A stretch of DNA of 14,190 nt from Candidatus Alcyoniella australis (GTDB lineage: Bacteria > Lernaellota > Lernaellaia > JAVCCG01 > Alcyoniellaceae): contig JAVCCG010000097.1 of assembly GCA_030765605.1 (NCBI GenBank), forward strand, positions 1-14,190, in the 5' to 3' direction. How positions within the stretch are numbered: the stretch's first letter is position 1; each line of letters opens with the position of its first letter. This document shows positions 1-13,814 of the stretch, piece after piece. The notes below the pieces were generated by a model. It did no database searches. It was not told the DNA's origin and saw only the letters and a program-made list of their open reading frames with translations. Made by a program: the position numbers and the translations under genes.

Positions 1-1527
1 CTCGAGAGTCGCCTCGAACCACTGGGCCTCGGGCTCGATCTGCAAACCGCGCAGCAGCGGCCCCAGGTCCGACTGCTCGCAGAGCATGTTCAGCGCATCG
101 CGCAACGGCAACGCAACGCCCATGGGCTCCACCGCCCTGCGCTGCAACGCCATTAACGGCGTGCTGCCGCAGGCCACGGAGAGCATATCGTTGCACTCCA
201 GCGGCAGAGCCTCGGGCAGTACGATGTCGGCAAGCATGCTCGATTCGTTGAGGAACGGAGTAACGGCCGCGATCATCCCTACCCGCTGCTGGTCTGCCAA
301 CGCCCGCCCCAGCTGTGCGCCCTGGGGTAGGTCGTAGACCGGATTGGCGCAGTGCAGCAGCAGCGCGCCTCCGCCATCGAGCAGCTCGGAGTAGGCTTGC
401 AACGGATCGCTGGGCTGCGCTGTCTCGCCCTGGCCAAAGGTCTCGGGGAAGGTCAGCCCGCCCTCGGCGTCGATTGCGCCGACCAAGGCGGCCAGCGCCC
501 AGGCGGCGGCTGCTGCTTGGTCGCCATCGGGCCGCGCGGCAACCGAGTCGGCCACCAGCACGCTCAGCGGCAGGTTGTCGGCAATGCTGCGCGCAGTCGC
601 GGCAACGCTGCCCGCGCTTAGTCCCAGGTCTTGCTCCGCCTGCTCGGCCGTGGGCCATTGCGCATGGCGCGCGGGGTCAACGTCGCAAAGCGAAACCAAC
701 GAGGCGTCGATGCGGCCCAGGCCCACCAGTTCCCTCGCCAAAGCGGCCAGCAGCAGCCTGTCGCCTCCGGGCCGCACTGGCAGCCAGATGTCGGCACGCC
801 CGGCGGTATTGGACAATCGCGGGTCGATCACGATCAGCTTGGCCCCGCGCTCCACCCGGGCTTGGGCGATCTGCATCGCATCCTGGATGTAGCGCCGTCC
901 GCCCTCGAACGGATTGGCCCCCACGCAAAGGATCGAGCGCGCTCGCACTAGGTCGGCCACGGGGGGCGCCAGGCCGAAAGCCTGCTGTGCGGCGAAGTCC
1001 AGTGCGCGACGCCGCGACGTGCCGAGGCTGACCAGCTTTGATCCGGGTAGCGCGCGTTGGAACGCGGCCAGGGGCGCGGGGATTCGGTCGTCCATCGCCT
1101 CGCTGTGCACCAACGTACCCTTGGACTGTGCCAGGGCGCTCCCCAACGTATTGACCGCCTCGGCCCAGCTGATCGGCTCGAACTTGCCCGAGCCGCGCGG
1201 GCCCACGCGCTTCAGCGGCGACGTAATGCGATCCGGCAGATAGTGCAGGTTGATCGCGGCCAGGCCCACGGCGCAGATCCGGCCTTGGCCCAGGGCGCTC
1301 TGAGGATTGCCCATCAGCGTAATCAAACGCTCGTTGCGCGTGTAGGCGCTGATTCCGCAGGCCGCGGGGCACATGCGGCAGGTGGTGGACGTGGGCAGGT
1401 CGGCTTTATGGGTGGTGCGCGATACGTGCAGGGTCGGGCCCACGCCTTGCGCCGGAAGCGCGCGCAGCCCGGTCGCGGCTGCCGAGGCGGCCATCCCGAG
1501 CTTTAGAAATCTGCGCCTATCGAGCAT
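1..1527 (-). CDS. Tat-exported molybdopterin-oxidoreductase-like large subunit (PsrA/QrcB/ActB-type), C-terminus cut off by window edge
   Basis: This is the large subunit of a complex-iron-sulfur-molybdoenzyme-type assembly; 509 residues are visible with no stop. The N-terminus has a Tat signal (RRRFLKLG, residues 4-11) followed by a hydrophobic stretch, so it should be exported folded. A 4Fe-4S motif is present at C50, C53, C57 and C85 (CX2CX3CX27C), typical of this superfamily. Rossmann-like blocks follow (ILCVGANPFEGG at about 199-210; KLIVIDPRLSNTAGRADIWL at about 229-248). In the region where catalytic relatives place the Mo-ligating Cys, SeCys or Ser (roughly 140-190), I see only LGTSRRRALDFAAQQAFG, with no Cys; this resembles the cofactor-free QrcB and ActB proteins. 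The ATG lies 2 nt after the NrfD stop, with no strong ribosome binding site, which suggests translational coupling. The family call is firm. Whether it binds molybdopterin or catalyses anything is uncertain. Confidence 0.9.
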   Translation of the reverse strand, partial: MLDRRRFLKLGMAASAAATGLRALPAQGVGPTLHVSRTTHKADLPTSTTCRMCPAACGISAYTRNERLITLMGNPQSALGQGRICAVGLAAINLHYLPDRITSPLKRVGPRGSGKFEPISWAEAVNTLGSALAQSKGTLVHSEAMDDRIPAPLAAFQRALPGSKLVSLGTSRRRALDFAAQQAFGLAPPVADLVRARSILCVGANPFEGGRRYIQDAMQIAQARVERGAKLIVIDPRLSNTAGRADIWLPVRPGGDRLLLAALARELVGLGRIDASLVSLCDVDPARHAQWPTAEQAEQDLGLSAGSVAATARSIADNLPLSVLVADSVAARPDGDQAAAAAWALAALVGAIDAEGGLTFPETFGQGETAQPSDPLQAYSELLDGGGALLLHCANPVYDLPQGAQLGRALADQQRVGMIAAVTPFLNESSMLADIVLPEALPLECNDMLSVACGSTPLMALQRRAVEPMGVALPLRDALNMLCEQSDLGPLLRGLQIEPEAQWFEATLE

Positions 1528-1529
1528 TT

Positions 1530-2426
1530 TCACATCAAAGGCAGCGCTTGGCCGCCGAAAACCGTGACGTAGCGCATGAAGAAAATCCCGATCACCACCA
1601 GCAGTCCGGCGATGGTCAGTCCGGGCACGGTGCGCAGCCGCGGATGAAAAACGATAATCAGCGGCACGACCTTGCCCAGCAGGTTCTCAACCCCCACGAA
1701 CAGCGGCGAGAGGTTGCCGCCGAGGATCAGCCAAGCGGTCTCCTGCGCGCCGTGATGGCTGATCGAGAGCACCGCGATGTCGCAAAACACCATCACCAAA
1801 TCGACCACGAGCGCCCAGCCCAGAATTTTCGCTAATCCGTCGACCAGGTCGCGCGGCACTTTTTTCTCGGCGCTGAAAAAGCGGAACTGCACCACGGCAA
1901 TCACGATCATCAGCGCAATGCCGCTGACGATCGCCGAGACCAGAAACAGTATCGGCATCAGCGCGGTGTTCCACAGCGCGCGCGCTTTGCCAAATGCCAG
2001 GATGAATCCGGTGTAGCCGTGAACCGAGATCGCCAACGGAATGCCGACCAGCCCCAAGATCTTGGTCATCCGCATGTCGCCGCGGAACATGAACAGGCCG
2101 TAGACAATGCAGTTCAGCGGATAGAGCACCAGCAGGAACCCGCCGTACGACATCGGCGAGTGCAGATTGATGTAGGTGAAGTGGTTCCAGATCGAGCGCA
2201 CCGGCCAGCCGACCTGCAGCAACAGCGCCACGGGCGCGGCCATTAAAAGCAGCGTGGCCGTGACCACCGCGGTCTTGCCTATCGGCTTGTAGCGCTTCAT
2301 GCCGAAGCCGTAGCTCAGGGTGCTGATGATGAACGAGCCCGCGGACAGGCCGGTGAGGTAGAAGTAGATCGAGATCAGCCAGCGGAAGGTCACCTGGTGC
2401 GGCACGTCGTAGAGCAGTCTCACCAT
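1530..2426 (-). CDS. NrfD/PsrC-type quinone-interacting membrane subunit
   Basis: This 298-residue polytopic protein is of the NrfD family, the membrane anchor that exchanges electrons with the quinone pool in Psr, Nrf, Qrc and ACIII complexes. About eight hydrophobic spans are visible. The family signature is HGYTGFILAFGKARALWNTA, followed by PILFLVSAIVSG, the region that lines the quinone pocket in PsrC. The start is the ATG overlapping the stop of the upstream ferredoxin subunit by 7 nt (ATGGTGA); a weak AAGG lies about 8 nt before it. An upstream in-frame extension would lie wholly inside the ferredoxin gene and is not plausible. Its position between the four-cluster ferredoxin and the molybdopterin-like subunit is the standard B-C-A arrangement of such complexes. 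The direction of quinone reaction cannot be read from the sequence. Confidence 0.93.
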   Translation of the reverse strand: MVRLLYDVPHQVTFRWLISIYFYLTGLSAGSFIISTLSYGFGMKRYKPIGKTAVVTATLLLMAAPVALLLQVGWPVRSIWNHFTYINLHSPMSYGGFLLVLYPLNCIVYGLFMFRGDMRMTKILGLVGIPLAISVHGYTGFILAFGKARALWNTALMPILFLVSAIVSGIALMIVIAVVQFRFFSAEKKVPRDLVDGLAKILGWALVVDLVMVFCDIAVLSISHHGAQETAWLILGGNLSPLFVGVENLLGKVVPLIIVFHPRLRTVPGLTIAGLLVVIGIFFMRYVTVFGGQALPLM

Positions 2427-3025
2427 CGCCGCACCTTGCGCTTGACCGACATCGTCGCCTCGTCGAAGTCGATGTAATAGACCCGCGGCTGCGTGCCCAT
2501 CTCGGGCATCAGCACCTGGGTCGGGTTGGACGCGATCAAGCGGCTGATCTCCGATTGCGGGTCGTTCAGATCGCCGAACACGCGCGCGCCGACCGGGCAG
2601 GCCTCGACGCAGGCCGGAAGCAGGCCCACGTCCACACGGTGCATGCACCAATGACACTTCTCGACAATGCGCTTGATCGGGTGGATGTAGCGCACCTCGT
2701 AGGGACAGGCCGCCATGCAGTAGCGGCAGCCTACGCAACGATGCGGGTCGTAGGTCACGATGCCGTCGGGGCGTTTCTTGTTGGCCTGCACCGGACAGAC
2801 CGTGACGCAGATCGGCTCCTCGCAGTTGTTGCACAGCAGCGGTAAAAATGCTTTGCGCGTGGCCGGGAAGCTCCCCTTCTCGACCTGCTTGACCCACGAG
2901 CGGAACACGCCCAACGGCACGTCGTTCTCGCTCTTGCAGGCCACGGCGCAACTGTTACAGCCGATGCAGCGCCGCAGATCGACCAGGAACCCGTAACGCA
3001 CGCCTTCGCCCTGCCCGCTATGCAC
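2420..3025 (-). CDS. Four-cluster 4Fe-4S ferredoxin subunit (PsrB/DmsB/QrcC-like)
   Basis: This 201-residue electron-transfer subunit should connect the NrfD protein to the molybdopterin-like protein. Sixteen cysteines fall in four sets: C20/C23/C26/C30, C65/C68/C73/C77, C97/C100/C103/C107 and C124/C127/C139/C143. That is the full complement of the DmsB/PsrB/NrfC family, with the usual CX2CX11CX3C final set. There is no signal peptide; relatives are carried across the membrane with a Tat-exported partner, which here would be the large subunit downstream. The chosen start is GTG at 3025, overlapping the upstream gene's stop by 8 nt; a second GTG nine codons in (before RYGFLVDL) is an alternative. 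Length is typical of the family and no cluster ligand is missing. Confidence 0.93.
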   Translation of the reverse strand: MHSGQGEGVRYGFLVDLRRCIGCNSCAVACKSENDVPLGVFRSWVKQVEKGSFPATRKAFLPLLCNNCEEPICVTVCPVQANKKRPDGIVTYDPHRCVGCRYCMAACPYEVRYIHPIKRIVEKCHWCMHRVDVGLLPACVEACPVGARVFGDLNDPQSEISRLIASNPTQVLMPEMGTQPRVYYIDFDEATMSVKRKVRRW

Positions 3026-4013
3026 CGGGGACCTGCCTGGCGCGCGCTGTTTCGCGGCGCGCCTCGTCGCGTCGACGCTGACGATCTTGCAGCACCGAGG
3101 CCGCGGCCACGCTCGGGCCGGAGTTGCCTACCGGGCACTTGGCCGCGCACTTGCCACAGCCCACGCAGTACTTGGCCAGCTCGGCCACGTGCTGGTAATT
3201 GCCGGTGCGCGCCTCGAGCACCATGACCATCGGGAACGGATCGCTGCCGACCATCTTAATCGGGCAAACCCCGACGCAGGCCTGGCAGTTGTAGCAGGTC
3301 AGGCTCTGGCCGGTGCCCGGCACCAATGCCGGCTGCAGCACGAAATCGAACAGCAGCAACACGATGAACAGAATCGCCAGCGCGTTGAACGTGATCCGTC
3401 CGGCGCGGTTTTCCGAGACAAAGAACGCCGCGCGGCTGATGGGCGACAGTTTCGGACGATCCTCGCGGCCCGCGAGCAGCGCGTCTTCCAACGCGTGCTG
3501 GAACGCGGCCGTGTCGCGCTGGTTGCGAAACACGAAACCGGCCATGCCGCTTAAATCGGTGCTGGTCATGCCCCGCACCTGCGCCAGCAGATCGTCGAAA
3601 GCGTAGGCCGTCTCTTGGTTGCGCGTCAGGGTCACATCGGCGATCGCGCCGCGCTCCACGCGCAGCTCGAGTTGCAGCGGTCCGTTGAGCGCTGCCGCCT
3701 CGCCGAAATACTCGCCGTCAGGCACGGTCGTCAGATTGACCGGCGTGTTCTGTTCGTAGAATTGCGCCATGCTTCGCGCGTCGCCGCGGGCGTTGATCTG
3801 CACCAGCAGCGCCACGCCAAGCACGCCCAGCAGCGGCCAGACCAGGGCCATGCCGCCGCGTTTGCGGTCGCGAAGACCCACGGCCGCAATCATCACGGCC
3901 AACGCCAGCAGGATGTAGAGCCGTCCGGGCACGAACGCCAGGGCCAACAGCGCGGCGAACGCGGTCAAGCGATAGGGCCGCGAGATCAGTCGGCGCAGGC
4001 GCTCGTGGTTCAT
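3018..4013 (-). CDS. Membrane protein with FMN_bind-like domain and two C-terminal 4Fe-4S clusters (NosR-like layout)
   Basis: This 331-residue protein has hydrophobic segments at about 17-47 (one or two spans), 57-73 and 209-226. A soluble region lies at about 96-180 and two 4Fe-4S motifs sit at C240/C243/C246/C250 and C283/C286/C289/C293. The soluble region resembles FMN_bind domains (DGEYFGEA start; TSTDLSGMAG at 150-159), as in NosR, RnfG and NqrC, which carry FMN esterified to the Thr of an SGAT motif. Here that motif reads SGMA, so the acceptor Thr appears to be Ala (A158); covalent FMN is therefore doubtful. The start is the ATG in an ATGA overlap with the upstream gene, preceded by AGGAAAG; an ATG seven codons earlier (4034) is possible but has a worse context. 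It probably relays electrons between the membrane face and a soluble or quinone partner. I infer this role from domain layout only. Confidence 0.85.
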   Translation of the reverse strand: MNHERLRRLISRPYRLTAFAALLALAFVPGRLYILLALAVMIAAVGLRDRKRGGMALVWPLLGVLGVALLVQINARGDARSMAQFYEQNTPVNLTTVPDGEYFGEAAALNGPLQLELRVERGAIADVTLTRNQETAYAFDDLLAQVRGMTSTDLSGMAGFVFRNQRDTAAFQHALEDALLAGREDRPKLSPISRAAFFVSENRAGRITFNALAILFIVLLLFDFVLQPALVPGTGQSLTCYNCQACVGVCPIKMVGSDPFPMVMVLEARTGNYQHVAELAKYCVGCGKCAAKCPVGNSGPSVAAASVLQDRQRRRDEARRETARARQVPGA

Positions 4014-4561
4014 CCGCTTTCCTGCTCGAGCCATTGGGCCACGCGGTCGATAAACTGCCGTCCGACCAGCCCGTCATCATAAGCGTGCTGGATTGCCTGA
4101 CGCCGGATCGCGCCGCGCTGCATCGCCGCGATGGTGCGCTGCTGCATGGTCGAGTAGATCCGCGGCAAATCGAGGTTTACCACGCAGAAACTGCGGCAGT
4201 TACCGCAGCGCACGCACTTGAGTCCACCGGCCCTGAGAAAGCGCTCATAGTCGGCCACGCGCGCGGAGACCGTCAGCTCGGCCTGCAGGCCGATTCCCAC
4301 CGGGCAGCGATCCTGGGTGCCGTAGCAGGCGCGGCACTCGTAACAGTAGAGGGTCTGGGGCACGCCGCCGATTAACGGCTTTAACGCGTCCACAGCCAGG
4401 GCCGTGCCGATGGCGAGCATTGCCGCACGATTGAGATTTTTGGTCAGCGGGCGGTCGGAGATATCGGAAAAGAACTGGTAGCGGTGGATCCCGGGCATCA
4501 CCAGCGGCTGCTGCAGCCGGTCGCGCTTGTGCTCGGGTTTGTCCTTCTTCTGCGACGCCAT
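4010..4561 (-). CDS. Membrane-anchored dicluster ferredoxin
   Basis: This 183-residue protein has a charged N-terminal tail, one likely membrane segment (about 45-66) and two 4Fe-4S motifs. The first, C73/C76/C79/C86, has an enlarged last gap (CX2CX2CX6CP) instead of the usual CX2CX2CX3CP. The second, C116/C119/C122/C126, has normal spacing but Val in place of the usual Pro after the last Cys. The C-terminal part (130-183) is helical and charged. The layout parallels the cluster half of the downstream FMN_bind-like protein, and the two genes overlap by 4 nt (ATGA), so they probably work as a pair. It starts 6 nt after the stop of the 51-codon gene. It is most likely an electron carrier of this operon's complex; I do not recognise a named family. 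Confidence 0.85.
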   Translation of the reverse strand: MASQKKDKPEHKRDRLQQPLVMPGIHRYQFFSDISDRPLTKNLNRAAMLAIGTALAVDALKPLIGGVPQTLYCYECRACYGTQDRCPVGIGLQAELTVSARVADYERFLRAGGLKCVRCGNCRSFCVVNLDLPRIYSTMQQRTIAAMQRGAIRRQAIQHAYDDGLVGRQFIDRVAQWLEQESG

Positions 4562-4567
4562 CTGTTT

Positions 4568-4723
4568 CTACCTATGCGGTAACATCGCGGCCATCGCCAA
4601 TCCGGCGATGATCCCGCCCACCACGCCCTGGGCCAATTCCTTGGGCGATTTCATATCAAGCGCGTAGGCCGTGATCAGCCCACTGACCGCGCCTCCGACT
4701 GTGAATGCGATCCAAAGGCTCAC
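4568..4723 (-). CDS. 51-residue membrane protein resembling the C-terminus of the neighbouring transporter
   Basis: This small gene starts at a GTG overlapping the transporter stop (GTGA) and ends at TAG, 6 nt before the next gene, so it fills an otherwise empty slot in a continuous operon. The product has two hydrophobic segments (about 2-20 and 32-48) separated by a short polar stretch (DMKSPKELAQG). It lines up without gaps over most of its length with the last 50 or so residues of the transporter: both have a Gly/Ala-rich first helix, then E..QG.VGG..A.L, then P.R near the end. It may be a detached or duplicated C-terminal hairpin of the transporter, or an accessory subunit. Support comes from tight spacing at both ends, coupled start and coherent membrane profile; no named family is recognised. 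Confidence 0.75.
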   Translation of the reverse strand: MSLWIAFTVGGAVSGLITAYALDMKSPKELAQGVVGGIIAGLAMAAMLPHR

Positions 4724-6423
4724 GACTTGGCCTCCCGCGGCGCGGGCGTCAGTCGGGAGGGCACCATCAGCGAGATCACCAGCGCTGCCAGCGCTCCGCC
4801 CACCGCGCCCTGCATAATCTCAAGTCCGGCCAAACCATAGAGGCTGAACGAAAGCACGGCCCCGGCGAACGCGCCCAGCGCGAGAAATCCGACGCGCTGC
4901 CAACGTTGTCCCGAGGCGATCGAGATCGACGCCTTGCGGCCGATGAACAGCGTGCCCACGATCGTGGCCACTACCACCACTGCCGCGTAGAGCGCCAGTT
5001 GCAGCATGTCCGACGCGCTGGGGTAAAACATCTCGGATTGCGAGCGGAACAGGCCGAGGTTGGCAAAGCGCATGTACAGCGCAGCCAGCGGCGCCATCAC
5101 GGCCATCGAGGTGAAAACGTAGGCGCCCTTGATGTAGCCGCTCTCCGCGCGCATCTGCCCCTCGCCCATCATCCCGCCGCCGCCCAGGGGGCTGGGTCCG
5201 CAGGAGGTGGTGGCGTTGATAATGTAGGCCGCCATGGCGATGGCAAGCTGATCCCAGGTGATGAAGTTGAACCCGGCCGGACCGAACTGGTAGAGCACCG
5301 GGACCAGCGCAGCGGTTAATATCCGCGAGCACGACAGCGGCAGGATCGTCTGGATCTGCACGAAGATCGCCAGCATCCCGGCCACGCCCAGCAAAGGGAA
5401 TTTCGAGAGGGCCGAGAGCACCACTCCCAGTGCGTCGAATCCGCCGGTGGCGGCCAGCGCTCCGGCAGCGAGAAATCCGGCGATCATCGCGGCCACGGGC
5501 AGCAAAATGATCCCGGCCATCAGGTCGCGGATTCCGGCGCGGGAGATGATTACGATCAGCACGGCCGCGCCGGCGAGCACGGTCTGTACCGGCAGTTTGC
5601 CGAACAGCTCGAACACCGAGGCGAGCAAGGCAAAGACAAAGATCACCAGGCTGGCGTAGCCGACCAGCGTGGCCTTGGGCGGCTCGACCTTGCGTCCGGC
5701 CATCTCCGTGTCGGCGATGCGATCACGCAGAGTCACGTCGTCGGGGTAGAGCCGCTGGGTGATGAACTTGAGAAACAGCGCGGTCACCGCCGTGCCGAGC
5801 ATCAGCGCAAAGGCCTGGGGCGCGCGCAACATTCCTGCGGCCGCCGCGTCGAAATGCGCGCCGAGAAATCCCTCGCCGATCTGCCCCACCCCACCGATGG
5901 GGCTGGGACCGCACGAGCCGAAGGCGTTGCGCGAGAACGCGCCGATCAGCACGATCATCTGCGTGCGCGTCAGCACGTTCATCCCACCCTCGGCGGAAAA
6001 GGCGAACAGCAGCGGCAGCAGCGCCGCGGCGATAATCCGGCCGCAGGGCAGACTGGCGATCATCGGCACCTGGATCAGGATCACCAACGTGCCGGCCAGG
6101 CCGATGATCGGCACCCGCTGCAGCGCCATGATCAAGACCTTGAACGCCTCGAACCCACCCGAGATCTGCAATGCTCCGGCCATGAAGAGTCCGGCGAGCA
6201 GCGCGGTGATCGGGTGGAGGATAATCCAGCCCATGGCCTCGTTGGGCATGGCGAGCACCGCGGGCAGACCGTCGAAAACCGCGCGATGCGCAGCGCCGAG
6301 CGCCAGGATCACCAGCGTGGTGATCACCAGCACGGTCTGCACCGGCATGTTGATCTTGCGCAGCAGGGTCAGCACCATCACGCCGACGAACAGCAGCAGT
6401 GTCAGTGCGCCCAGCCAGGTCAT
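4720..6423 (-). CDS. Polytopic transporter-like protein built from two internal repeats
   Basis: This 567-residue integral membrane protein has more than ten hydrophobic spans. Residues about 26-185 and 277-422 are repeats of each other. Each begins with PVQTVL (27-32 and 278-283), continues through a Gly-rich helix, then a Cys-Arg element (LPCGRIIAAALLP at 125-137; LSCSRILTAALVP at 363-375), and ends in SCGPSP(I/L)GG (170-178 and 407-415) followed by GEG. Twin Gly/Ser/Pro-rich breaks at equivalent places are typical of transporters with two pseudo-symmetric halves, such as the ion transporter superfamily, but I cannot name the family or substrate. A third section (about 470-556) adds further spans. 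The start is the ATG in an ATGA overlap with the upstream gene, with GGAAG 5 nt before it; earlier in-frame starts lie inside that gene. An ion-translocating role alongside the redox subunits is inference. Confidence 0.88.
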   Translation of the reverse strand: MTWLGALTLLLFVGVMVLTLLRKINMPVQTVLVITTLVILALGAAHRAVFDGLPAVLAMPNEAMGWIILHPITALLAGLFMAGALQISGGFEAFKVLIMALQRVPIIGLAGTLVILIQVPMIASLPCGRIIAAALLPLLFAFSAEGGMNVLTRTQMIVLIGAFSRNAFGSCGPSPIGGVGQIGEGFLGAHFDAAAAGMLRAPQAFALMLGTAVTALFLKFITQRLYPDDVTLRDRIADTEMAGRKVEPPKATLVGYASLVIFVFALLASVFELFGKLPVQTVLAGAAVLIVIISRAGIRDLMAGIILLPVAAMIAGFLAAGALAATGGFDALGVVLSALSKFPLLGVAGMLAIFVQIQTILPLSCSRILTAALVPVLYQFGPAGFNFITWDQLAIAMAAYIINATTSCGPSPLGGGGMMGEGQMRAESGYIKGAYVFTSMAVMAPLAALYMRFANLGLFRSQSEMFYPSASDMLQLALYAAVVVVATIVGTLFIGRKASISIASGQRWQRVGFLALGAFAGAVLSFSLYGLAGLEIMQGAVGGALAALVISLMVPSRLTPAPREAKS

Positions 6424-6740
6424 CGTTGCTTCCGTTGCGTGGCGCGCGCGCTGACGTGCCAACCGCGCGACGAGCGGATCACCCGCACACGGTCGCCGGG
6501 CATCAGACAACCGGCGCAGGTCTCGCAATCCAAAGCGTCGGCCTCGATCTCCTGCGGCTGCTCTCCGGCTTCCGCGTCGAGGCGCAGACGCACACGGCAG
6601 CCGATGATGGCATATGCCGGGTCGTCGCCGTTCACCGCGCCGAGCACTGTGGCTTCGCTGCCGGCGCGCATCCGGTACAGCTCAGCGGCCAGCCACAGCG
6701 CCAACAACGCAACGGAGGTGATCCAGACCACGGTCTGCAT
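6420..6740 (-). CDS. Small single-span protein with a beta-rich domain and CxxCxxC motif
   Basis: This 106-residue protein has an N-terminal membrane segment (about 4-22) and then a soluble domain with alternating hydrophobic residues suggesting a small beta-barrel. A Cys cluster, DCETCAGC (C72, C75, C78), is followed by PGDRVRVI; a further Cys is at 48. The domain is reminiscent of NfeD/OB-type barrels and, loosely, of the Cys-containing barrel of RseC, a protein associated with Rnf/Rsx redox systems, but the order of membrane and barrel parts differs from RseC. The cysteines could hold a metal or cluster or be redox active. It starts by a TGATG junction with the NHL gene and ends by an ATGA junction with the transporter gene, so it is firmly inside the operon. 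Function unknown. Confidence 0.8.
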   Translation of the reverse strand: MQTVVWITSVALLALWLAAELYRMRAGSEATVLGAVNGDDPAYAIIGCRVRLRLDAEAGEQPQEIEADALDCETCAGCLMPGDRVRVIRSSRGWHVSARATQRKQR

Positions 6741-7702
6741 CAGATCCCCTCGACCAGCACGATCGTCGGTCCCGCCGCGTCGAGCACAGCCAGCCGTCCG
6801 TCCGCATGGCGGCTCAGGGCGATGGGACGCCGCAGCTCGATTTCGATCGCGGGCAGCGGCCCGCCGTGACGGAACGCGGTCAGCCGCGCGTTGCCCGTGT
6901 CGGCCACGATCAGCAGACCGTCGGGTCCGGCCAGCATGTCTTGCGGCATGTTCAGCTCGCCCGCGCCCGAGCCCTGGTTGCCAAAGGTAAAGCCGAAGCG
7001 TCCCTCGGAATCTAGCTCGAGCACCCGTCCGTGTTTGGAGTCCAGCACCAGCAGGCCGCTATCGCGCGCGGCCACTGCCGTGGGCAAACGCAGGCCGTAG
7101 TCCAGGCCCTGCGGGCCCGAGGGCTGCGGGTCCTCGCCCAACACGCCCAGGGCTGCGATCACCTCGCCCGACGATTGGTCGAACAACTGCACGTTGTGGC
7201 CGCGGGTGTTGGCCACGATCAGCCGTCCGGCGTCCAGGGCCAGTCCCTCGGGGTTGAACAGCTTGCCCGGCGTGCCGCCCAACGAGCCGTACTGGCCCAC
7301 AAAGCGGCCGTCGGTGTTGTGAACGGTTACGCGGCCGTTGTTGGTATCGACGATCCACAGCCGTCCGGCCTGATCAATGCGCAGTGCGCCGGGCCAGTTG
7401 AACCGGCCCTGTCCGCTGCCCGGTCCGCCGAAGGCTGTCAGCGGCGCGCCGCGCGGATCGAGCCGCACCACGCGGTAACGTCCGGCCTCGCAAAGCCAGT
7501 ACGTGCCGTCGGTTGCGCAGGCCAGCCCCCGCGGGTGGCGCAGGTCGAGCTCGATGCGCTCCACCACGCCGGTCCGGACCAGGGAGGTCGCGGGCAACGG
7601 CGACAGCGCGGCAATCGCCACGCCCGAGCCTATGGCTTTGACGAAACTGCGACGCCCCCGATCAGGCGGATCGGGGGCGCTAGAGCGTTTTTTCTTCAGC
7701 AA
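6740..7702 (-). CDS. Tat-exported NHL-repeat beta-propeller protein
   Basis: This 320-residue protein has a twin-arginine signal (GRRSFVKAIGSG, residues 16-27) and then about six NHL-type blades. These are recognisable by repeated blocks such as HPRGLA, FNWPGALRIDQAGRLWIVDT, FNPEGLAL, LRLPTAVAA and MNMPQDML-like spacing, each followed by a hydrophobic strand and an asparagine- or glycine-rich turn. NHL propellers usually act as binding or scaffold domains; some bind ligands or partner proteins. The start is TTG at 7702: it is the only start codon between an in-frame upstream TAA and the Tat motif, and a modest GAG-type ribosome binding site precedes it. It is the first gene of the nine-gene redox operon, about 56 nt downstream of a predicted transcription start. 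A periplasmic accessory or substrate-binding subunit is likely but unproven. Confidence 0.9.
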   Translation of the reverse strand: MLKKKRSSAPDPPDRGRRSFVKAIGSGVAIAALSPLPATSLVRTGVVERIELDLRHPRGLACATDGTYWLCEAGRYRVVRLDPRGAPLTAFGGPGSGQGRFNWPGALRIDQAGRLWIVDTNNGRVTVHNTDGRFVGQYGSLGGTPGKLFNPEGLALDAGRLIVANTRGHNVQLFDQSSGEVIAALGVLGEDPQPSGPQGLDYGLRLPTAVAARDSGLLVLDSKHGRVLELDSEGRFGFTFGNQGSGAGELNMPQDMLAGPDGLLIVADTGNARLTAFRHGGPLPAIEIELRRPIALSRHADGRLAVLDAAGPTIVLVEGI

Positions 7703-7726: not shown

Positions 7727-7770
7727 AGGATTACCGACGACTCTAGTTCCAAAATATCATCGATAATCCT
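7727..7770. repeat. Perfect 7-bp inverted repeat flanking the predicted transcription start
   Basis: AGGATTA (7727-7733) and TAATCCT (7764-7770) are perfect inverse copies 30 nt apart. The right copy overlaps the predicted -10 box and the left copy lies in the leader. This could be a paired operator for a dimeric regulator or pair in RNA; it could also be chance at this length. Confidence 0.3.
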
Positions 7771-7794
7771 AGTCGCTGTCCCCGAACCTGTCAA
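7766..7794 (-). promoter_or_regulatory. Sigma70-type promoter for the redox operon
   Basis: On the minus strand a perfect -35 box TTGACA (7794-7789) is followed by a 17-bp spacer and TAGGAT (7771-7766; four of six consensus positions). Transcription would begin near 7759, giving a leader of about 56 nt before the TTG start of the NHL gene. It lies immediately downstream of the terminator of the preceding gene run, exactly where an independent promoter is expected. Confidence 0.6.
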
Positions 7795-7858: not shown

Positions 7859-8947
7859 TCAGCCGCCCAATCCCCGGCCCATCAGCGAGGTCAGCATCGA
7901 AATGCCGAACAACGCTCCGCAGCCGCAGAGCACAATCAACGGCAGCAGCACTCCGGCCACGGCCCGTCCGTAGCTCGTGCCGTGCATTTCCTTGATGCCG
8001 ATCACGGTCAGCACCAAGATCCAGATCCCGGCCAGCGTCCCGACCACGGGGATCGCCTGGAACAGCTGCACGCCGCTGGCGTAGCAGTAGGCGCGCAGGG
8101 TCGCCTTGAACCCGTTGCCCGCTGCGCCAAGGACCAGCAGTCCCACGTGGAACAGCGCCGCACCCAGCAGCAGCGCCAGAAAGAGGATCCCCGGCGAACA
8201 GAACATGGCTATGGACAGATAGTTGCTGTTGGCAAAGAACTGCTCCGAGCCCTGGGGTATCGGCGTCACCCCGTACTTAATCAACCCCAAACCGGCCAGC
8301 ATGCCCAGGACGCCCCAGATCACGCCGAAGGCCAGCGCCTTGCCCAACGAGCCCGCGGGCTCGAGGTAGCGAAAGAAGGTCACCGGGCTGAAAATCAGCG
8401 AGCCGAACGAACGCATCAACCAGGCAAAAAAACCCAGGCTCTCCGGGTCCTCGACCACCACCGATTCCGAGTCGTCGCCCACTGCGCCCGCCCGACCCAG
8501 GTCGACGTATTGGGCCATTACCGCCGCGCGCTGTCCGGGCCGCAACGAGTCCAGCGGCTCCATCTGCGGATAGCGGAACTCGCCTCCGCAGGAACGGCAA
8601 CGGTAGACCTCGGGCTCGTCAACGCCGACCTGCGCGCTGCACAGCGGGCAGCTGACATTGCGGTGCTGATGAAGCTGGAGTTCCTCCCGGGGATGGCTGA
8701 ACGAGCTGTAATCGTCCATCTCCTGCATCCACTGCATTCCGTCCGCAGCATCGCCCGGACCAGGCTGCGGCGCATCGATCGGCCGATCGTCCTGCGCTTT
8801 CAACGGCCGGTCGATCGGGGACGGCTCAGCCGCGGCGCTGAACTCGCTCCAACACTTGGGACAGCGGTATTGCCCCTCGCCGCCGAAGGTCAGTCCGGCG
8901 TTGATCTGCTCGCCGCAATTGGGGCATTTTACTATCTCTTGGCCCAT
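7859..8947 (-). CDS. Membrane protein with two zinc ribbons and a Yip1-like domain
   Basis: This is the third and longest of three tandem paralogues (362 residues). It has an N-terminal MJ0042-type zinc ribbon (C8/C11/C29/C32). A second, unshared ribbon (C100/C103/C117/C120) follows after an acidic, Pro-rich linker. A Yip1-like membrane region of about five spans (roughly 185-355) contains the shared block FFRYLEP near its start and a GTLAGIWILVLTVIGIKEMH block near the end. MJ0042 ribbons are common at the N-termini of deltaproteobacterial membrane and signalling proteins; Yip1 domains are membrane proteins of poorly known bacterial role. The ribbons would face the cytoplasm, with no signal peptide. 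A GGGAG site precedes the ATG. The gene ends at a probable terminator. Specific function unknown. Confidence 0.87.
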   Translation of the reverse strand: MGQEIVKCPNCGEQINAGLTFGGEGQYRCPKCWSEFSAAAEPSPIDRPLKAQDDRPIDAPQPGPGDAADGMQWMQEMDDYSSFSHPREELQLHQHRNVSCPLCSAQVGVDEPEVYRCRSCGGEFRYPQMEPLDSLRPGQRAAVMAQYVDLGRAGAVGDDSESVVVEDPESLGFFAWLMRSFGSLIFSPVTFFRYLEPAGSLGKALAFGVIWGVLGMLAGLGLIKYGVTPIPQGSEQFFANSNYLSIAMFCSPGILFLALLLGAALFHVGLLVLGAAGNGFKATLRAYCYASGVQLFQAIPVVGTLAGIWILVLTVIGIKEMHGTSYGRAVAGVLLPLIVLCGCGALFGISMLTSLMGRGLGG

Positions 8948-8983
8948 GCCCTACTCCCAGCTTGGAATCGTCGCTCTCGGCTC

Positions 8984-9835
8984 TTAGAAACTGGCGGCCA
9001 TTATCCCGCCGACCAGCAGAGACGTTCCTACGCAGCAGAACACGAGGAGCAATCCAATCGGCGTGAGCACCGCGCCCACGGCCTTACCGTAGGTGGTCTG
9101 GTGCACCTGCTTCAGCCCGATAATGTACAGCACGCCCATCCAGATTACCGCGATGAACCCGCCGACGAACGGCACTACCTGTACGATGTTGAGTCCGCCT
9201 GCGTAACAGTAGACGCGCATCGTGGCCCAGAAGTCTTGGCTGCGGCCGCGGAAGATGATCATGAACAGGTGCAGCACCGCGCTGGTGATAAAGGCGTTCA
9301 TCAGCACGCTCAACGGACCGATGATCGGCGTGCCGATCAGCATCACCAGAAAGTAGTTGCGCATGAAGTGCGGGTCTTGGAACATGCCGAACACGCCCAT
9401 ATCGGGCATTCCCGGAGGCGTGGCGCCGCCCATGCCCACCGAGCCCATCAGCATGTTCTGCGCGAACGCCCACAATACGCCGAAGAAGTAGCCGATCGTG
9501 CCCAGGATTACGACGTAGAGCAACGCGCTGCCCATCGGCCGATTCGGGTCGAGGCTGCGGAAGAATCCCACCGGGTCGACGATCGTCTGCTTCAGGGTCT
9601 GGAACATCCCGCTTACAAATCCCAGCTCGTCGCGACGCTCGAACGGCGTGGCCTGGGGAGCGCTGGGCGTGAACCGAATGTCGTAGGCCGACGATCTTGG
9701 CGGCTGGGGCTGCTGGGACTGCACCTCGCCGGTGTATTGAAATTCGTGGCCGCAGGCCGGACAGCGGTAGCGGCCCGGCGCGCCGACGTTGAGCTGGGCG
9801 GTACAGCTCGGGCACTTGACTATCTGCTCGCTCAT
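8984..9835 (-). CDS. Zinc-ribbon Yip1-like membrane protein (middle paralogue)
   Basis: This 283-residue protein has one zinc ribbon (C8/C11/C25/C28), a short Gln/Pro-rich linker, and a Yip1-like membrane domain with about five spans. FFRSLDPNRPMGSALLYVVI marks the start of the domain, a central YCYAGGLNIVQVVPFVGGF block matches its paralogues, and GLKQVHQTTYGKAV comes near the end. The ATG has a good GGAGAGG ribosome binding site 8 nt upstream. It lies 65 nt after one paralogue and 36 nt before the next, so the three probably arose by tandem duplication and are largely co-transcribed. It is the most compact of the set. Function unknown; a role in membrane or envelope organisation is only a guess from the Yip1 name. 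Confidence 0.87.
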   Translation of the reverse strand: MSEQIVKCPSCTAQLNVGAPGRYRCPACGHEFQYTGEVQSQQPQPPRSSAYDIRFTPSAPQATPFERRDELGFVSGMFQTLKQTIVDPVGFFRSLDPNRPMGSALLYVVILGTIGYFFGVLWAFAQNMLMGSVGMGGATPPGMPDMGVFGMFQDPHFMRNYFLVMLIGTPIIGPLSVLMNAFITSAVLHLFMIIFRGRSQDFWATMRVYCYAGGLNIVQVVPFVGGFIAVIWMGVLYIIGLKQVHQTTYGKAVGAVLTPIGLLLVFCCVGTSLLVGGIMAASF

Positions 9836-9877
9836 CTGATCGACCTCTCCGGTATTCGAGAATAATCAGGATTTTTA

Positions 9878-9906
9878 AGTATAGAACAAATCAGCGCCTC
9901 TCAGAA
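9878..9906 (-). promoter_or_regulatory. Possible internal promoter for the middle paralogue
   Basis: TATACT (9883-9878, five of six -10 positions) sits 17 bp after TTCTGA (9906-9901), a poor -35 that overlaps the stop of the upstream gene. The surrounding gap is AT-rich compared with the rest of the window. It could give extra expression of the last two genes. Confidence 0.3.
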
Positions 9907-10860
9907 CACGCAGATCAGGCAACAGGTCAACATCGTGGGCAGCATCCAGGCCAGCAGCGCCTGGAAGAGGCTGATGTGCTGCACCTGCCTCAGCCCGATG
10001 ATCTGCAGCGTCGAGATCCAGACGAAACCCAGCGGCGGTCCGACCAACGGCAGCATCATCGCTATCCCCACGCCCGCGGAGTAGCAGCAAACGCGCAACG
10101 TGGCGTTGAACCCGTGATTGCGCGGGTTGAACGCATTGACGAACACATGCATCAGCAGCGCGCTGAGCAGCAGCCAGACGACGATCCCCAACGGCACCAA
10201 CAGCGGCGAGATCGCCAGATTGATCAGGTTCGAGCGGTAGATAAACTCCGGCGTCATGTACGGCGCCAGGGACTGTCCAAAGTCGCCCAGGCTGTCGAGC
10301 ATGCCGGTAATTTGGTCGAGTTGCTCGCCCTTAATCGGCATCAACATGTACTGCAGAAAGGTGAACACGCGCGCCAGCAGTTTGCCCACGCCGGCGAGCA
10401 CTATAGCGTAGACCAGTGCCGGGCCGTAACCCGGACGCGGATCGAGCGTAGCGAAAAAGCGCAGCGGATCTTTGATCGTGGCCCACAACGTGAGCAGCGC
10501 GCCGCGCACCAGTCCGTAGCGCTCGCGTTGCTCAAGGGGCGCGGGCTGGTACTCGAAACTCTGTGGAGTAATCGGCTCGGGCATCCGGGGCGGCAGATCG
10601 ACAGTTGGGGTCGGTTGCCTGGTCTCGGGCTGGGCGGCCTGCGTTGCGTCTGGCTCGTAGCTCGCCGCGGGCGCGTCTGGATCGGGTCCGCGATAGACGT
10701 GCCCGCCGTGGGTCAGCACCTGCGGTTGTTCTTGGGCAGTCGCGGTCGGTTGCAACGGATGGCGGAACTCGTGGCTGCACGCCGGGCAGCGGTAGCGGCC
10801 GGGTCCGCCGACCTCGAGCAGCGCATTGCACTGTGGACAGTTAATGGTCTGATGATCCAT
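9901..10860 (-). CDS. Zinc-ribbon Yip1-like membrane protein (first paralogue)
   Basis: This 319-residue protein has a zinc ribbon (C8/C11/C25/C28) with spacing identical to the middle paralogue, including GRYRCPAC. A Thr/Pro/Gln-rich linker of roughly 90 residues follows, then a Yip1-like membrane domain (FFATLDPRPGYGPALVYAIV; CCYSAGVGIAMMLPLVGPP; GLRQVQHISLFQALLAWMLP). The chosen ATG at 10860 has AAGGGG about 6 nt before it; a GTG two codons earlier would sit too close to that site. It begins 9 nt after the stop of the upstream exported protein, so the two are co-transcribed. The long linker suggests the ribbon is held away from the membrane. Partner and function unknown. Confidence 0.87.
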   Translation of the reverse strand: MDHQTINCPQCNALLEVGGPGRYRCPACSHEFRHPLQPTATAQEQPQVLTHGGHVYRGPDPDAPAASYEPDATQAAQPETRQPTPTVDLPPRMPEPITPQSFEYQPAPLEQRERYGLVRGALLTLWATIKDPLRFFATLDPRPGYGPALVYAIVLAGVGKLLARVFTFLQYMLMPIKGEQLDQITGMLDSLGDFGQSLAPYMTPEFIYRSNLINLAISPLLVPLGIVVWLLLSALLMHVFVNAFNPRNHGFNATLRVCCYSAGVGIAMMLPLVGPPLGFVWISTLQIIGLRQVQHISLFQALLAWMLPTMLTCCLICVF

Positions 10861-10869
10861 CCGCACCCC

Positions 10870-12105
10870 TTACTTAACTAGTTTCCTCTGCCGCCGCATT
10901 GCGATCTCGCCCAGGGTCAGGCCGGGGCTGGACTCGACATAGGCCGGCACGTCCGAGTAACGGTCGAGTACAATGCCCAATCCGTAACGCGCCTGACCGG
11001 GGCTGTCCAGCAGATCCAGGGTCAGACGGGCGTGCTCGAGCCAGGCATGGCCCGCGCACTGCTCGCTACAGCGTGCGTCGCGCGCCAACCTCTCAAGGCG
11101 CATCATCACCTGCTGCGGCATATAGCCCAGCCGCGCCAAACCCGCAAGGCGCTCCACAGCCTCGACGTCGGCCGGGACCACGCGGTCTTGGGCGAAAATC
11201 GGCACGGCCCCGCTCTGAAGCGCCGTACGGACGTAGAGGTCCTGAGCCTGACCAAAGCGCGATCGATTGTTGTCGACCACCGCCCGCACGCTCAACGCCC
11301 GACCCTCAAGCAGCAGCGAGCGCGCCGCGTCCGCCGGGTTGTCGCAGGCCTGCTTAATGCGGCCAAGCACCATGTACAGCCGCGGCGGCTCCACGGCCCG
11401 CTGCTCGAGCAGACGCTCGAGGCGGTCGAGCAACGCCTGGGAGGCGGGCAGCACCCGGCCGTCGGCCAGGCGCGGCTCGCGACCGTGTTTCTCCAGGACG
11501 TCGAGCAGTCCGTCCACGGCCTGAGCGCCTTTGCCCTTGCGCATCAAGATCGGCGCGCGCACCAACGCGCGCTCGACCTGAACCGGCCCGTACCACGGAC
11601 TCGGCGCGTAGGGCGATCCGACCACGCCGTCGGCCAGACGTAGCGCTGGGTCGTCAAGCACCTGCAGCGCAGCGTTGTCGTCCTGGATCAGACGCGCCCA
11701 CTGGAGCTGTGCGGCGTGCTTGAGATCGATCGGCCCGCCGCCCTCCCAGAAGTTATCGAGCTTGGTGCCGTTGGGATAGAACTGCATGATCTGGAGGCAG
11801 GCCCGCCTGGCCGCCAAAAGGTTGCCGCGTCCAGCCTCGATCCGCGCCACGGCGAACAGCGCGGCCTTGCCCTCCTCGGACAGCGGGTAGGCGCCGAAGG
11901 TCACGTTGTACTCGTTCAGCAGGTGGTCCCACGGCGGCGGCTGGATGGCCCAAAGCCTTTCGAGGCGCTGATTGATCAGGAACATCCCGTAATTGACCTC
12001 GGCCGGAGAAGGCCGGCGCAACGCAGCGGCCGTAGCGCTGAGCAACGGCGCGCCGAGCACGGCCAGCCCGAGCACGATTGCGATCGTCGTGCGTCTGAAT
12101 CTCAA
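10870..12105 (-). CDS. Exported helical-repeat (TPR-like) protein of unknown function
   Basis: This 411-residue protein starts with a signal peptide (MRFRR, hydrophobic core, ATAAA cleavage-like site near residue 27). The rest is almost wholly helical, with Ala/Leu/Arg-rich amphipathic segments, for example ALFAVARIEAGRGNLLAARR and ARSLLLEGRALSVRAVVDNN, in the style of tetratricopeptide solenoids, although I cannot place canonical TPR motifs exactly. A single Cys pair (CSEQC) sits near residue 345. The start is TTG, supported by a TGAGG ribosome binding site 6 nt upstream and by the immediately following signal peptide. It probably resides in the periplasm or at the outer membrane and shares an operon with the zinc-ribbon/Yip1 genes (9-nt gap). 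A scaffold role is inferred from fold type only. Confidence 0.8.
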   Translation of the reverse strand: MRFRRTTIAIVLGLAVLGAPLLSATAAALRRPSPAEVNYGMFLINQRLERLWAIQPPPWDHLLNEYNVTFGAYPLSEEGKAALFAVARIEAGRGNLLAARRACLQIMQFYPNGTKLDNFWEGGGPIDLKHAAQLQWARLIQDDNAALQVLDDPALRLADGVVGSPYAPSPWYGPVQVERALVRAPILMRKGKGAQAVDGLLDVLEKHGREPRLADGRVLPASQALLDRLERLLEQRAVEPPRLYMVLGRIKQACDNPADAARSLLLEGRALSVRAVVDNNRSRFGQAQDLYVRTALQSGAVPIFAQDRVVPADVEAVERLAGLARLGYMPQQVMMRLERLARDARCSEQCAGHAWLEHARLTLDLLDSPGQARYGLGIVLDRYSDVPAYVESSPGLTLGEIAMRRQRKLVK

Positions 12106-12172: not shown

Positions 12173-12583
12173 TTAAAAAGCCAGATCAGGGCAGCCGTCG
12201 TCGTCGTTGTAGCCGTTAACGGTCTCGGGAATCGTCGGGCACAGGTCAATGGCGTCGGGGATGCCGTCGAGGTCGAGGTCCTTAACGCCGGCCGGTCCCG
12301 GACCGTCGAGGTAATAGCTCACGCGGTCAAGATTGCGTTGGATCAGCACCAGGTGATCGCGCGCCGCCTCGTAATCGCGCTCGTCGGCCTCCTCGCGCGC
12401 CGCCTCAAGGTGCACGATCGCGCGCGCCATCTCTTGCGGCGAGCGTTCGATTGCCCCGCGTTGCCTCAGGCCCTCGATGGCTTGCTGATACGAATCGACC
12501 TGCGAGTCGACATCGGCCTTGACCGCGCAGCCCAGGCAGAACAGGCAGGCCAGCAGCGCCAACGCCGTTGCCGCGCGGCTCAT
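12173..12583 (-). CDS. Small lipoprotein-like protein ending in a thrombospondin type 3 (Ca-binding) repeat
   Basis: This 136-residue protein has a hydrophobic leader ending in CLGC (C19), a slightly imperfect lipobox. A helical middle (about 48-90, AIVHLEAAREEADERDYEAA) resembles DUF4398-type helices. An Asp-rich tail, DLDLDGIPDAIDLCP followed by NGYNDDDGCPD (102-133), is a classic thrombospondin type 3 calcium-binding repeat with its paired Cys. In many envelope proteins such repeats lead into a C-terminal OmpA peptidoglycan-binding domain; here the protein simply ends. The start is the ATG in an ATGA overlap with the upstream lipoprotein gene, preceded by GAGGAA. It is likely an outer-membrane or periplasmic structural lipoprotein. 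Larger upstream in-frame starts are excluded because they run through two other reading frames' genes. Confidence 0.82.
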   Translation of the reverse strand: MSRAATALALLACLFCLGCAVKADVDSQVDSYQQAIEGLRQRGAIERSPQEMARAIVHLEAAREEADERDYEAARDHLVLIQRNLDRVSYYLDGPGPAGVKDLDLDGIPDAIDLCPTIPETVNGYNDDDGCPDLAF

Positions 12584-12891
12584 TGCTGTTCCTCGCCGCG
12601 GTTGAGGGTCTGCACCTGTTGGGCGATCGACAGCGCCTTGCTGCTGCTGTCCATGCTCAGCTTGGCAAAATGCAGGGCCGCGGAGAAGTCCGACTCGTCG
12701 AGCTGCTGCTGCGCCTCGAACAGGTACTCCTGGGCCAGAGTGAACTCGAAGGGCGCCAGGTAATCGGCATGGGCCTCGCCGGCCTGAACCACCATTTTGC
12801 CCGCCTGGGTCACGTTCTTGCCCGCAGTGCAGCCCGAGACCAGCAGCACGGCGACCAGGGTGCACAGTGTAAAAATCTTTGCATAGCGCAT
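12580..12891 (-). CDS. Small DUF4398-like lipoprotein
   Basis: This 103-residue protein has a good lipoprotein signal (VSGC, acylated Cys at 21) and then a helical domain with APFEFTLAQEYLFEAQQQLD and DFSAALHFAKLSMDSSSKA. This pattern matches DUF4398 proteins: AP-x-E-F, then alternating Ala/Leu helices. Such proteins sit in the envelope of Gram-negative bacteria, often beside OmpA-type proteins. The ATG is preceded by AAAAGGG and a plausible promoter lies 30-60 nt upstream. It overlaps the next lipoprotein gene by 4 nt, so both are made together; similar helices in the second protein suggest related folds or a hetero-oligomer. Exact role unknown. Confidence 0.85.
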   Translation of the reverse strand: MRYAKIFTLCTLVAVLLVSGCTAGKNVTQAGKMVVQAGEAHADYLAPFEFTLAQEYLFEAQQQLDESDFSAALHFAKLSMDSSSKALSIAQQVQTLNRGEEQQ

Positions 12892-13019: not shown

Positions 13020-13814
13020 ATGGAGTTCGAGGACGTTTTATTCGAACGCACCGAGCATACGGCGAAGATCAGCATCAACCGGCCCGAGGTCTACAACGCC
13101 TTTCGCACCCAAACCATCGAGGAGCTGCACAGCGCCCTGGCCCAGGCTGCGGACGACAGCTCGATCGGCGTGATCGTGCTGCGCGGAGCGGCCGGCGGGC
13201 CGCGCCCGAGTTTCTGCTCGGGAGGCGATGTCAACGAGATGCTCGCCCTGGATCCGGCGAACGGCCGCGTTTTTCTCTACAAGCTGTTCAACCTCTTCCA
13301 GCGCATCCGCAACGCGCCCAAGCCGGTAATCGCGGCCGTGGACGGCTTCTGCCTCGGCGGCGGCAACGAGATCAACCTTGTCTGCGATTTGACCCTGGCC
13401 ACCCGACGCTCGGTGTTCGGCCAGGTCGGCCCCAGCGTGGGCTCGATCCCGCTGCTCGCCGGAACCCAACTGCTGCCGCGGCTGGTGGGCGACAAGCGCG
13501 CCAAGGAGATCATCTTTCTCTGCCGCCGCTACAGCGCGAGCGAGGCGCTGGACCTGGGCTGGATCAACCACGTGGTTGACGACGAGGGACTGGACCAGGC
13601 TGTGGACCAATGGTGCGAACGAATTTTGCAGATGAGCCCGCAGTCGCTGCGGATTGCCAAGGCCTCGCTCAACTTCGAGAGCGATCAGCTGCTGCCCTCG
13701 TTCACCCACGGCATTGAGGCTCTGGCCCTGACCTACGGGTCGGAGGAACTGACCGAGGGGATGCAGGCGTTTTTAGAGAAACGCAAACCCGAGTTCAACA
13801 ACTTCCGCAAATAA
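13020..13814 (+). CDS. Crotonase-superfamily enzyme, MenB/BadI-like (enoyl-CoA hydratase/isomerase family)
   Basis: This 264-residue protein acts on a CoA thioester. FCSGGD (65-70) and CLGGGNE (111-117) form the usual oxyanion hole. The segments FGQVGPSVGS (133-142), FLCRRYSASEAL (166-177) and the C-terminal FLEKRKPEF (251-259) match MenB (dihydroxynaphthoyl-CoA synthase) and BadI (ketocyclohexanecarboxyl-CoA hydrolase) more closely than ordinary hydratases. The active site is mixed. Glu117 aligns with the first catalytic Glu of hydratases, while the second Glu is replaced by Gly137 as in MenB/BadI. The MenB/BadI Asp-x-Gly-Tyr region instead reads IPLLAGTQLLPRLVG, which is hydratase-like. The ATG has a strong AAGGAG site 7 nt upstream. 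It stands alone on the plus strand. Exact substrate (beta-oxidation, ring cleavage or other) cannot be told. Confidence 0.9.
   Translation: MEFEDVLFERTEHTAKISINRPEVYNAFRTQTIEELHSALAQAADDSSIGVIVLRGAAGGPRPSFCSGGDVNEMLALDPANGRVFLYKLFNLFQRIRNAPKPVIAAVDGFCLGGGNEINLVCDLTLATRRSVFGQVGPSVGSIPLLAGTQLLPRLVGDKRAKEIIFLCRRYSASEALDLGWINHVVDDEGLDQAVDQWCERILQMSPQSLRIAKASLNFESDQLLPSFTHGIEALALTYGSEELTEGMQAFLEKRKPEFNNFRK

Follow-up and report, generated by a model that had tools for sequence, protein, structure and literature searches.

The question raised by this locus is what a run of nine coupled genes, in which quinone-linked redox proteins stand beside a membrane transporter, does in Candidatus Alcyoniella australis. 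The window analysed is the entire contig JAVCCG010000097.1 (C97; 14,190 bp), from a genome of 4.29 Mb and 98% completeness, and the nine consecutive open reading frames (ORFs) lie on its minus strand from position 7702 down to position 1. Position 1 is the end of the contig and cuts the ninth gene, MOLY. A second contig of the same genome, C105, starts with a 127-nt exact overlap to C97; the joined MOLY is a single open frame of 721 amino acids (aa) and is followed by four further genes in the same direction, CYTC, FES2, FRDB and FRDA. CYTC, which overlaps MOLY by 4 nt, is a heptahaem cytochrome c with one N-terminal transmembrane helix (TM), and FES2 is a 4Fe-4S protein tethered to the membrane by a C-terminal TM. 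FRDB is a FrdB-like Fe-S protein and FRDA a FrdA-like flavoprotein. Contiguous loci from two relatives (L010 in G002 and L011 in G004) have the same gene order, which supports the join independently of the 127-nt overlap. As judged from these sequences, the operon is respiratory and comprises 13 genes, of which the first nine lie in the window.

With a probability of about 0.6, the operon is read here as one for fumarate respiration, in which a cytoplasmic fumarate reductase fed by quinol or cytochrome would work with a dedicated dicarboxylate transporter. The reading is based upon the FrdA/FrdB continuation, the recurrence of the set across groups, the residues of FRDA, the failure to find a canonical SdhB in this genome, the fumarase and malic enzyme genes which adjoin the operon elsewhere, and the fold of the transporter TRA. 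The promoter-like site and the genes of the window, in the order of transcription, are as follows.

7766..7794, minus strand: promoter-like site TTGACA-17-TAGGAT, sigma-70-like (consensus scan, 10/12)
6740..7702, minus strand: NHL, Tat-exported NHL beta-propeller, 320 aa (PF01436, 1.8e-21; Tat motif RRSFVK)
6420..6740, minus strand: SMALL, one-TM protein with a CxxC-type small soluble domain, 106 aa (homologues at this position)
4720..6423, minus strand: TRA, twin-repeat membrane transporter, 567 aa (DASS/INDY-like (IT) fold predicted by model)
4568..4723, minus strand: TAIL, two-TM protein, 51 aa (related to the last two TMs of TRA)
4010..4561, minus strand: FDX, membrane-anchored Fe-S protein, 183 aa (two Cys clusters, one predicted TM)
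3018..4013, minus strand: FMNFES, three-TM protein with a degenerate FMN_bind-like domain and C-terminal 2x[4Fe-4S], 331 aa (Fer4 matches)
2420..3025, minus strand: FES, PsrB/QrcC/DsrO-type [4Fe-4S] protein, 201 aa (NCBIfam DsrO)
1530..2423, minus strand: NRFD, PsrC/NrfD-type quinone-reactive membrane subunit, 297 aa (PF03916, 5.1e-40)
1..1533 and on into C105, minus strand: MOLY, molybdopterin-oxidoreductase-like, Tat-exported, 721 aa in full (PF00384/PF04879)

Seven of the eight junctions overlap, by 1 nt at NHL/SMALL, by 8 nt at FMNFES/FES and by 4 nt at SMALL/TRA, TRA/TAIL, FDX/FMNFES, FES/NRFD and NRFD/MOLY; the sole gap, of 6 nt, lies between TAIL and FDX. The 8-nt overlap is also present in the relatives L011 and L039, and therefore the start choice is right and the coupling not due to chance. 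An earlier note, made from the letters of the window, had described the nine coupled minus-strand genes, which were found in their place; its gaps of 2-6 nt reduce to the single gap of 6 nt, and its nine-gene operon is incomplete, the FrdA/FrdB-like catalytic pair lying beyond the contig end. The strong promoter which it put in front corresponds to the site at 7794-7766, a plausible promoter of the operon by its sequence, although five sites were found in the scan against 2.0 expected in shuffles and such a match is no proof of use. Both Tat-exported proteins that it named (RRSFVK in NHL, RRRFLK in MOLY) were recovered, as were its Psr/Qrc-like parts (MOLY, FES and NRFD), and the multihaem cytochrome that it thought might follow to the left is CYTC.

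The identity and direction of the enzyme were examined through FRDA. This protein matches FAD_binding_2; among the named NCBIfam families TfrA scored best (333 bits vs a cut-off of 718), and every equivalog cut-off was missed. In the tree, FRDA forms a branch of its own (support 1.0), apart from the NadB and SdhA paralogues that its genomes also encode. The tested fumarate-reductase residues, His (QYHPTG), Thr-Glu (ITE), Arg (PRD), His (LHY) and Arg (NRL), were present in 11/11 full-length FRDA sequences. In all 11, the copy from this genome included, the His which binds flavin adenine dinucleotide (FAD) covalently is replaced by Asn, and the eighth position of the FAD motif is Glu. Complex II variants without the covalent FAD bond retain fumarate reduction and lose succinate oxidation (PMC5773532), and Glu at the eighth position marks quinol:fumarate reductases (QFR), while Gln marks succinate:quinone reductases (PMC10308238). 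Because the covalent-FAD His is absent and the Glu is of the fumarate type, FRDA is predicted to reduce fumarate and should not oxidise succinate.

The same residues bear on the reverse direction, in which the complex would act as a membrane-potential-driven succinate dehydrogenase, passing electrons outward to periplasmic haems or quinone and supporting syntrophic propionate oxidation. A path from the cytoplasmic FRDA to the periplasmic heptahaem cytochrome would suit this, potential-driven succinate dehydrogenases are known in syntrophs, and a related metagenome-assembled genome (MAG) encodes most of the propionate pathway (PMC13248872). The domain of canonical SdhB (PF13085), present in 11 of 14 control genomes, was not found in FRDB, anywhere in this genome (G000) or in six other carriers of the set. 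However, several carriers do hold a canonical SdhB, and the Asn and Glu, both constant in FRDA, argue for fumarate reduction, given that mutants lacking the covalent bond cannot oxidise succinate (PMC5773532). The reverse direction was judged unlikely. The only other FrdA-like match in this genome is NadB.

A different substrate was also considered, namely another alkene acid, for example of the acrylate or methacrylate type, which FRDA would reduce and TRA would carry. Fumarate-reductase-like enzymes serve many substrates (PMC8238504), and the neighbours of the active site read QNGG vs the canonical TMGG. Yet all five checked carboxylate-binding or catalytic positions are retained, and fumarase and malic enzyme genes adjoin the operon in several loci, leaving this alternative a rather low probability.

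The transporter was approached by structure prediction. TRA had no Pfam, NCBIfam or PDB sequence match, and the PF00939 profile matched none of eight TRA members at E<=1. An AlphaFold2 model from 21 homologues (pLDDT 81.9, pTM 0.84; an earlier eight-sequence model, pLDDT 56, was not used) was closest by Foldseek and VIA to the DASS/SLC13 transporters, the best being NaS1 (Z 21.6, rmsd 3.9 over 419 residues), followed by Pho90 (Z 21), NaDC3-succinate (20.7), AtDiT1 (18.6), LaINDY (18.5) and VcINDY (14). Many DASS rows had Z values of 14-21, vs 15.9 for ArsB and 11-15 for TRAP. RnfA/E and NqrD/E chains were not among the fold-list matches, which is not proof of difference. On this model, TRA is confidently predicted to have the inverted-repeat elevator fold of the DASS/INDY-like (IT) type over residues 1-460, in agreement with the twin-repeat design ascribed to it earlier. 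Aligned by profile with PF00939 proteins, TRA was collinear over 417 columns, the match being weak and the SNT motifs falling on PCGR and SCSR. Residues C127, R129, N166, C171, C365, R367, N403 and C408 are invariant over the 21 homologues, to about 36% identity, and in the model each invariant Cys maps to a hairpin tip or an unwound helix, elements that form the substrate or ion sites in DASS. Basic residues stand in place of the Na+ sites in DASS exchangers (PMC7553777); by analogy, R129 and R367 may replace these sites in TRA.

TAIL matches the C-terminus of TRA (its last two TMs) at 34%, and is thus homologous to it, as expected of the detached transporter tail described before; it is kept as a gene of about 50 aa in nearly all carriers. 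A true PF00939 DASS transporter is also encoded in the genome (L168; G000:C126:58334-59776).

The invariant cysteines suggest another role for TRA, as a redox-linked ion pump or electron conduit in which the four (C127, C171, C365 and C408, two in each repeat) would coordinate a metal or an Fe-S centre at the core of the fold. Nqr and Rnf have such an intramembrane cluster. TRA adjoins TAIL, FDX and FMNFES also in loci that lack NHL and the Psr-like block, and a remote copy in G314 lies beside other redox genes. Against this, the predicted fold over residues 1-460 is that of the DASS/INDY-like proteins, the known members of which move anions, and the cysteines fall at DASS-type substrate or ion sites; with these at hairpin tips and unwound helices a role in substrate handling is equally possible. 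A conduit is considered distinctly improbable. Equally little credit is given to a single membrane complex whose reduction of fumarate, or oxidation of succinate in reverse, would be physically coupled to the elevator motion of TRA. The four Cys would then form redox-active or metal-binding pairs at the two pseudo-symmetric ion/substrate sites, fed by the Fe-S/FMN proteins next to TRA, which would be a redox-driven dicarboxylate or ion transporter. The earlier note had suggested electron transfer coupled to ion or solute movement; that TRA handles the dicarboxylates of the enzyme is the simpler reading.

The electron carriers were compared with characterised families. In FDX the two Cys clusters are conserved in the alignment. 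FMNFES has the layout TM-FMN_bind-TM-4Fe-4S, as in NosR/RnfG/PceC-type FMN_bind proteins, and its homologue in L006 matches FMN_bind PF04205. The flavinylation motif [ST]GATx[TS] is absent from the FMNFES of the window, where LSGMAGFVFRN was found in its place; it was lost in the class of the window with a four-residue insertion, the fold region being kept, and is intact in copies from a Zixibacteria-like phylum and partly so in L006 (RGATYTS). The flavin protein among the carriers proposed from the letters has thus lost the motif for attachment of flavin mononucleotide (FMN). FES scored 203 bits with DsrO, above the cut-off of 200, and 225 bits with TtrB, below the cut-off of 416. The Qrc cut-offs were missed for QrcB (153/440 bits), QrcC (135/400) and QrcD (50/570). 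MOLY retains the four N-terminal cluster cysteines, and the Mo-ligand Cys of PsrA was not found in the MOLY of the window or in nine relatives compared, the aligned stretch being variable. QrcB has the [4Fe-4S] cysteines and is not known to have the Mo-ligand Cys.

Among 60 sampled relatives, TRA was detected in 4 (this genome included), all from the class of the window. The Desulfobacterota-like phylum of G062 has it in 9 of 395 genomes, one of the nine being a remote form, and the small phylum to which the Zixibacteriota MAG CSMAG_2382 belongs has it in 11 of 14, one of these being a tail-only match. The last phylum is also that of G522, and its 14 genomes were counted once. The linked redox and transport unit envisaged earlier therefore does recur, in at least three distantly related groups (FEN-1099/Ca. 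Lernaellota relatives, Desulfobacterota and the Zixibacteria-like phylum), with the order mostly kept. In Desulfobacterota this is NHL-SMALL-TRA-TAIL-FDX-FMNFES-CYTC-FES2-FRDB-FRDA-trihaem cytochrome-FES-NRFD-MOLY, and in one locus (L058) genes for malic enzyme, fumarase alpha and fumarase beta directly precede NHL. The FES-NRFD-MOLY block lies between FMNFES and CYTC in the class of the window and was not found at the locus in the Zixibacteria-like phylum, some members of which have fumarase beta ahead of NHL. Family f123 of that phylum has TRA-TAIL-FDX-FMNFES-FES2-FRDB-FRDA without NHL; NHL is kept in place in the class relatives, in Desulfobacterota and in family f262. Homologues of SMALL, which had no Pfam or NCBIfam match, occupy the same position and share a conserved C-x-x-C region.

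Within the operon the Psr/Qrc-like module is optional and can change its place. Since it moves or is missing, and f123 has no NHL, the constant core is TRA, TAIL, FDX, FMNFES, FES2, FRDB and FRDA, usually with CYTC. The FRDA clade occurs in nearly all TRA genomes checked, the exceptions being G061 and G314, and was not found in the class members without TRA (G001, G003 and G005). The mobility of the block, and its absence from the Zixibacteria-like locus, could point to a Psr/Qrc-like respiratory complex lying by chance beside an unrelated transporter operon. For the core this is already refuted by the recurrence of NHL-SMALL-TRA-TAIL-FDX-FMNFES in distant groups, and the divergence of TRA follows that of FRDA (mirror-tree r = 0.93, without a species-tree correction and of little weight); chance co-location is thought to be scarcely credible. 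The mirror-tree values of NRFD were low (0.10 with FRDA, 0.45 with TRA), which may reflect only that there are two sequence clusters.

Some variants of the locus were noted. Several unrelated genes separate TRA from TAIL in some Zixibacteria-like genomes; in L125:6381-18568 (+) and L132:6447-13882 (+) the inserts appear by eye to be TPR, radical-SAM-like and methyltransferase-like, and TAIL is still kept. In a Syntrophaceae MAG (L037:7585-8345, minus strand) two short genes are inserted between FRDB and FRDA, one of which resembles, by eye, a toxin-antitoxin nucleotidyltransferase. At L062:1566-7740 (-) a remote TRA-like gene (about 35%) is accompanied by genes for a small membrane protein, DsbD_2, DUF1858 and several Fe-S proteins, without an FRD pair; from its sequence context this is a second redox setting of the TRA family.

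Compared with known systems, the operon is judged to encode a respiratory complex of the fumarate reductase type whose membrane partners are new, and which departs from each known family at the defining features of that family. With complex II (FrdABCD/SdhABCD) it shares the FAD_binding_2 flavoprotein, the tested fumarate residues, a 2Fe-2S + 4Fe-4S partner and the QFR-type Glu. It differs in that FRDA lacks the covalent-FAD His and has an N-terminal extension of about 90 aa, FRDB lacks PF13085, and the 13-gene setting includes a transporter, a heptahaem cytochrome and an NrfD block. Among the 13 genes, to which the look for such an anchor (PF01127) was confined, none encodes an SdhC/D-type cytochrome b or an FrdC/D-type subunit. 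TfrAB of methanogens and the 8-methylmenaquinol:fumarate reductase SdhABE are alike in lacking a haem-b anchor, and TfrA/TfrB are among the best NCBIfam scores. They differ in that these scores lie far below the cut-offs, in the CCG domains (PF02754), which had no match in FRDB, and in their membrane partners. As in Qrc, Psr and alternative complex III, MOLY, FES, NRFD and a multihaem cytochrome stand side by side; unlike in Qrc, a heptahaem or trihaem cytochrome replaces QrcA, and the block is optional within a fumarate reductase operon. The Desulfobacterota copies resemble DsrJOP of DsrMKJOP, with a trihaem c protein before FES and NRFD and FES over the DsrO cut-off, but the operon has no DsrM or DsrK, and NRFD is far below the DsrP cut-off. 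TRA shares with DASS/SLC13 (INDY) of the IT superfamily its predicted fold, repeat organisation and collinear profile alignment, and differs in its four invariant Cys, in three additional helices at the C-terminus and in the separate tail gene. Extracytosolic flavinylation systems differ in the motif lost from this FMNFES, and the text of a flavinylation survey does not mention NrfD or succinate dehydrogenase. As the earlier note had supposed, no description of the gene set was found in the open-licence literature (fumarate reductase with NrfD, NHL, NosR, Qrc, DsrMKJOP, Zixibacteria, alternative complex III).

For fumarate respiration the following route is proposed. Electrons from menaquinol or a periplasmic cytochrome would enter through the NRFD/FES/MOLY block, acting in a Qrc/Psr-like way without molybdenum catalysis, and through CYTC. 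They would cross to the cytoplasmic side via FDX and FMNFES (through FMN in other lineages) and continue over FES2 and the 2Fe-2S/4Fe-4S centres of FRDB to the non-covalent FAD of FRDA, where fumarate would be reduced to succinate. TRA would carry the C4-dicarboxylates and might do so by exchanging fumarate (or malate) for succinate, with two symmetric hairpin-tip arginines in place of the Na+ sites. NHL and SMALL would be accessory. The substrate, the direction, the order of carriers, the mode of exchange and a single physical assembly are what we infer here.

Several points weigh against this proposal. The C97-C105 join depends on the 127-nt assembly overlap together with synteny. The sequence tie between TRA and DASS is weak (hhalign probability 38%, E 3e-4), and TRA has Cys/Arg motifs instead of both SNT motifs. 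FRDA reads PTLHYQNGG where known enzymes have a HYTMGG-like sequence, so that a related substrate is possible. The remote relative of TRA in G314 lies beside DsbD_2 and Fe-S genes without an FRD pair, which leaves room for a redox role of TRA beyond fumarate. Propionate oxidation, for which the reaction would have to run in reverse, has been suggested as possible for a MAG of the FEN-1099/Lernaellota phylum (PMC13248872). The sequences come almost wholly from MAGs, and the case is computational throughout: the gene set, its recurrence, the TRA fold, the catalytic residues and flavin signature of FRDA and the missing SdhB were all computed.

If correct, the fumarate-respiration reading adds a form of fumarate reductase that comes with a transporter of its own and whose operon encodes no cytochrome-b-type anchor. 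Its carriers are little-known anaerobes (FEN-1099/Lernaellota relatives, Syntrophaceae and Zixibacteria-like bacteria). FRDA/FRDB is the only FRD/SDH-like pair found in this genome and hence likely decides how the C4 branch of central metabolism is closed and whether the proposed syntrophic propionate lifestyle is possible. TRA would also stand for a transporter family of a new kind, in which Cys and Arg are invariant at the places that hold the SNT motifs and sodium sites of DASS proteins.

Rfam and tRNA scans of the window gave no matches. Upstream of the operon, three tandem paralogues with an N-terminal zinc ribbon and a Yip1 domain (362, 283 and 321 aa) lie at 7859-10866 (-), followed at 10870-12105 (-) by a protein of 411 aa that has no Pfam match and whose N-terminus is of the export type. 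Two small lipoprotein-like ORFs at 12173-12891 (-) have DUF4398 matches, one above the cut-off, and one of the two also has a weak TSP_3 match. At 13020-13814 (+), divergent from the remaining genes, an enoyl-CoA hydratase/isomerase (ECH_1) is encoded.

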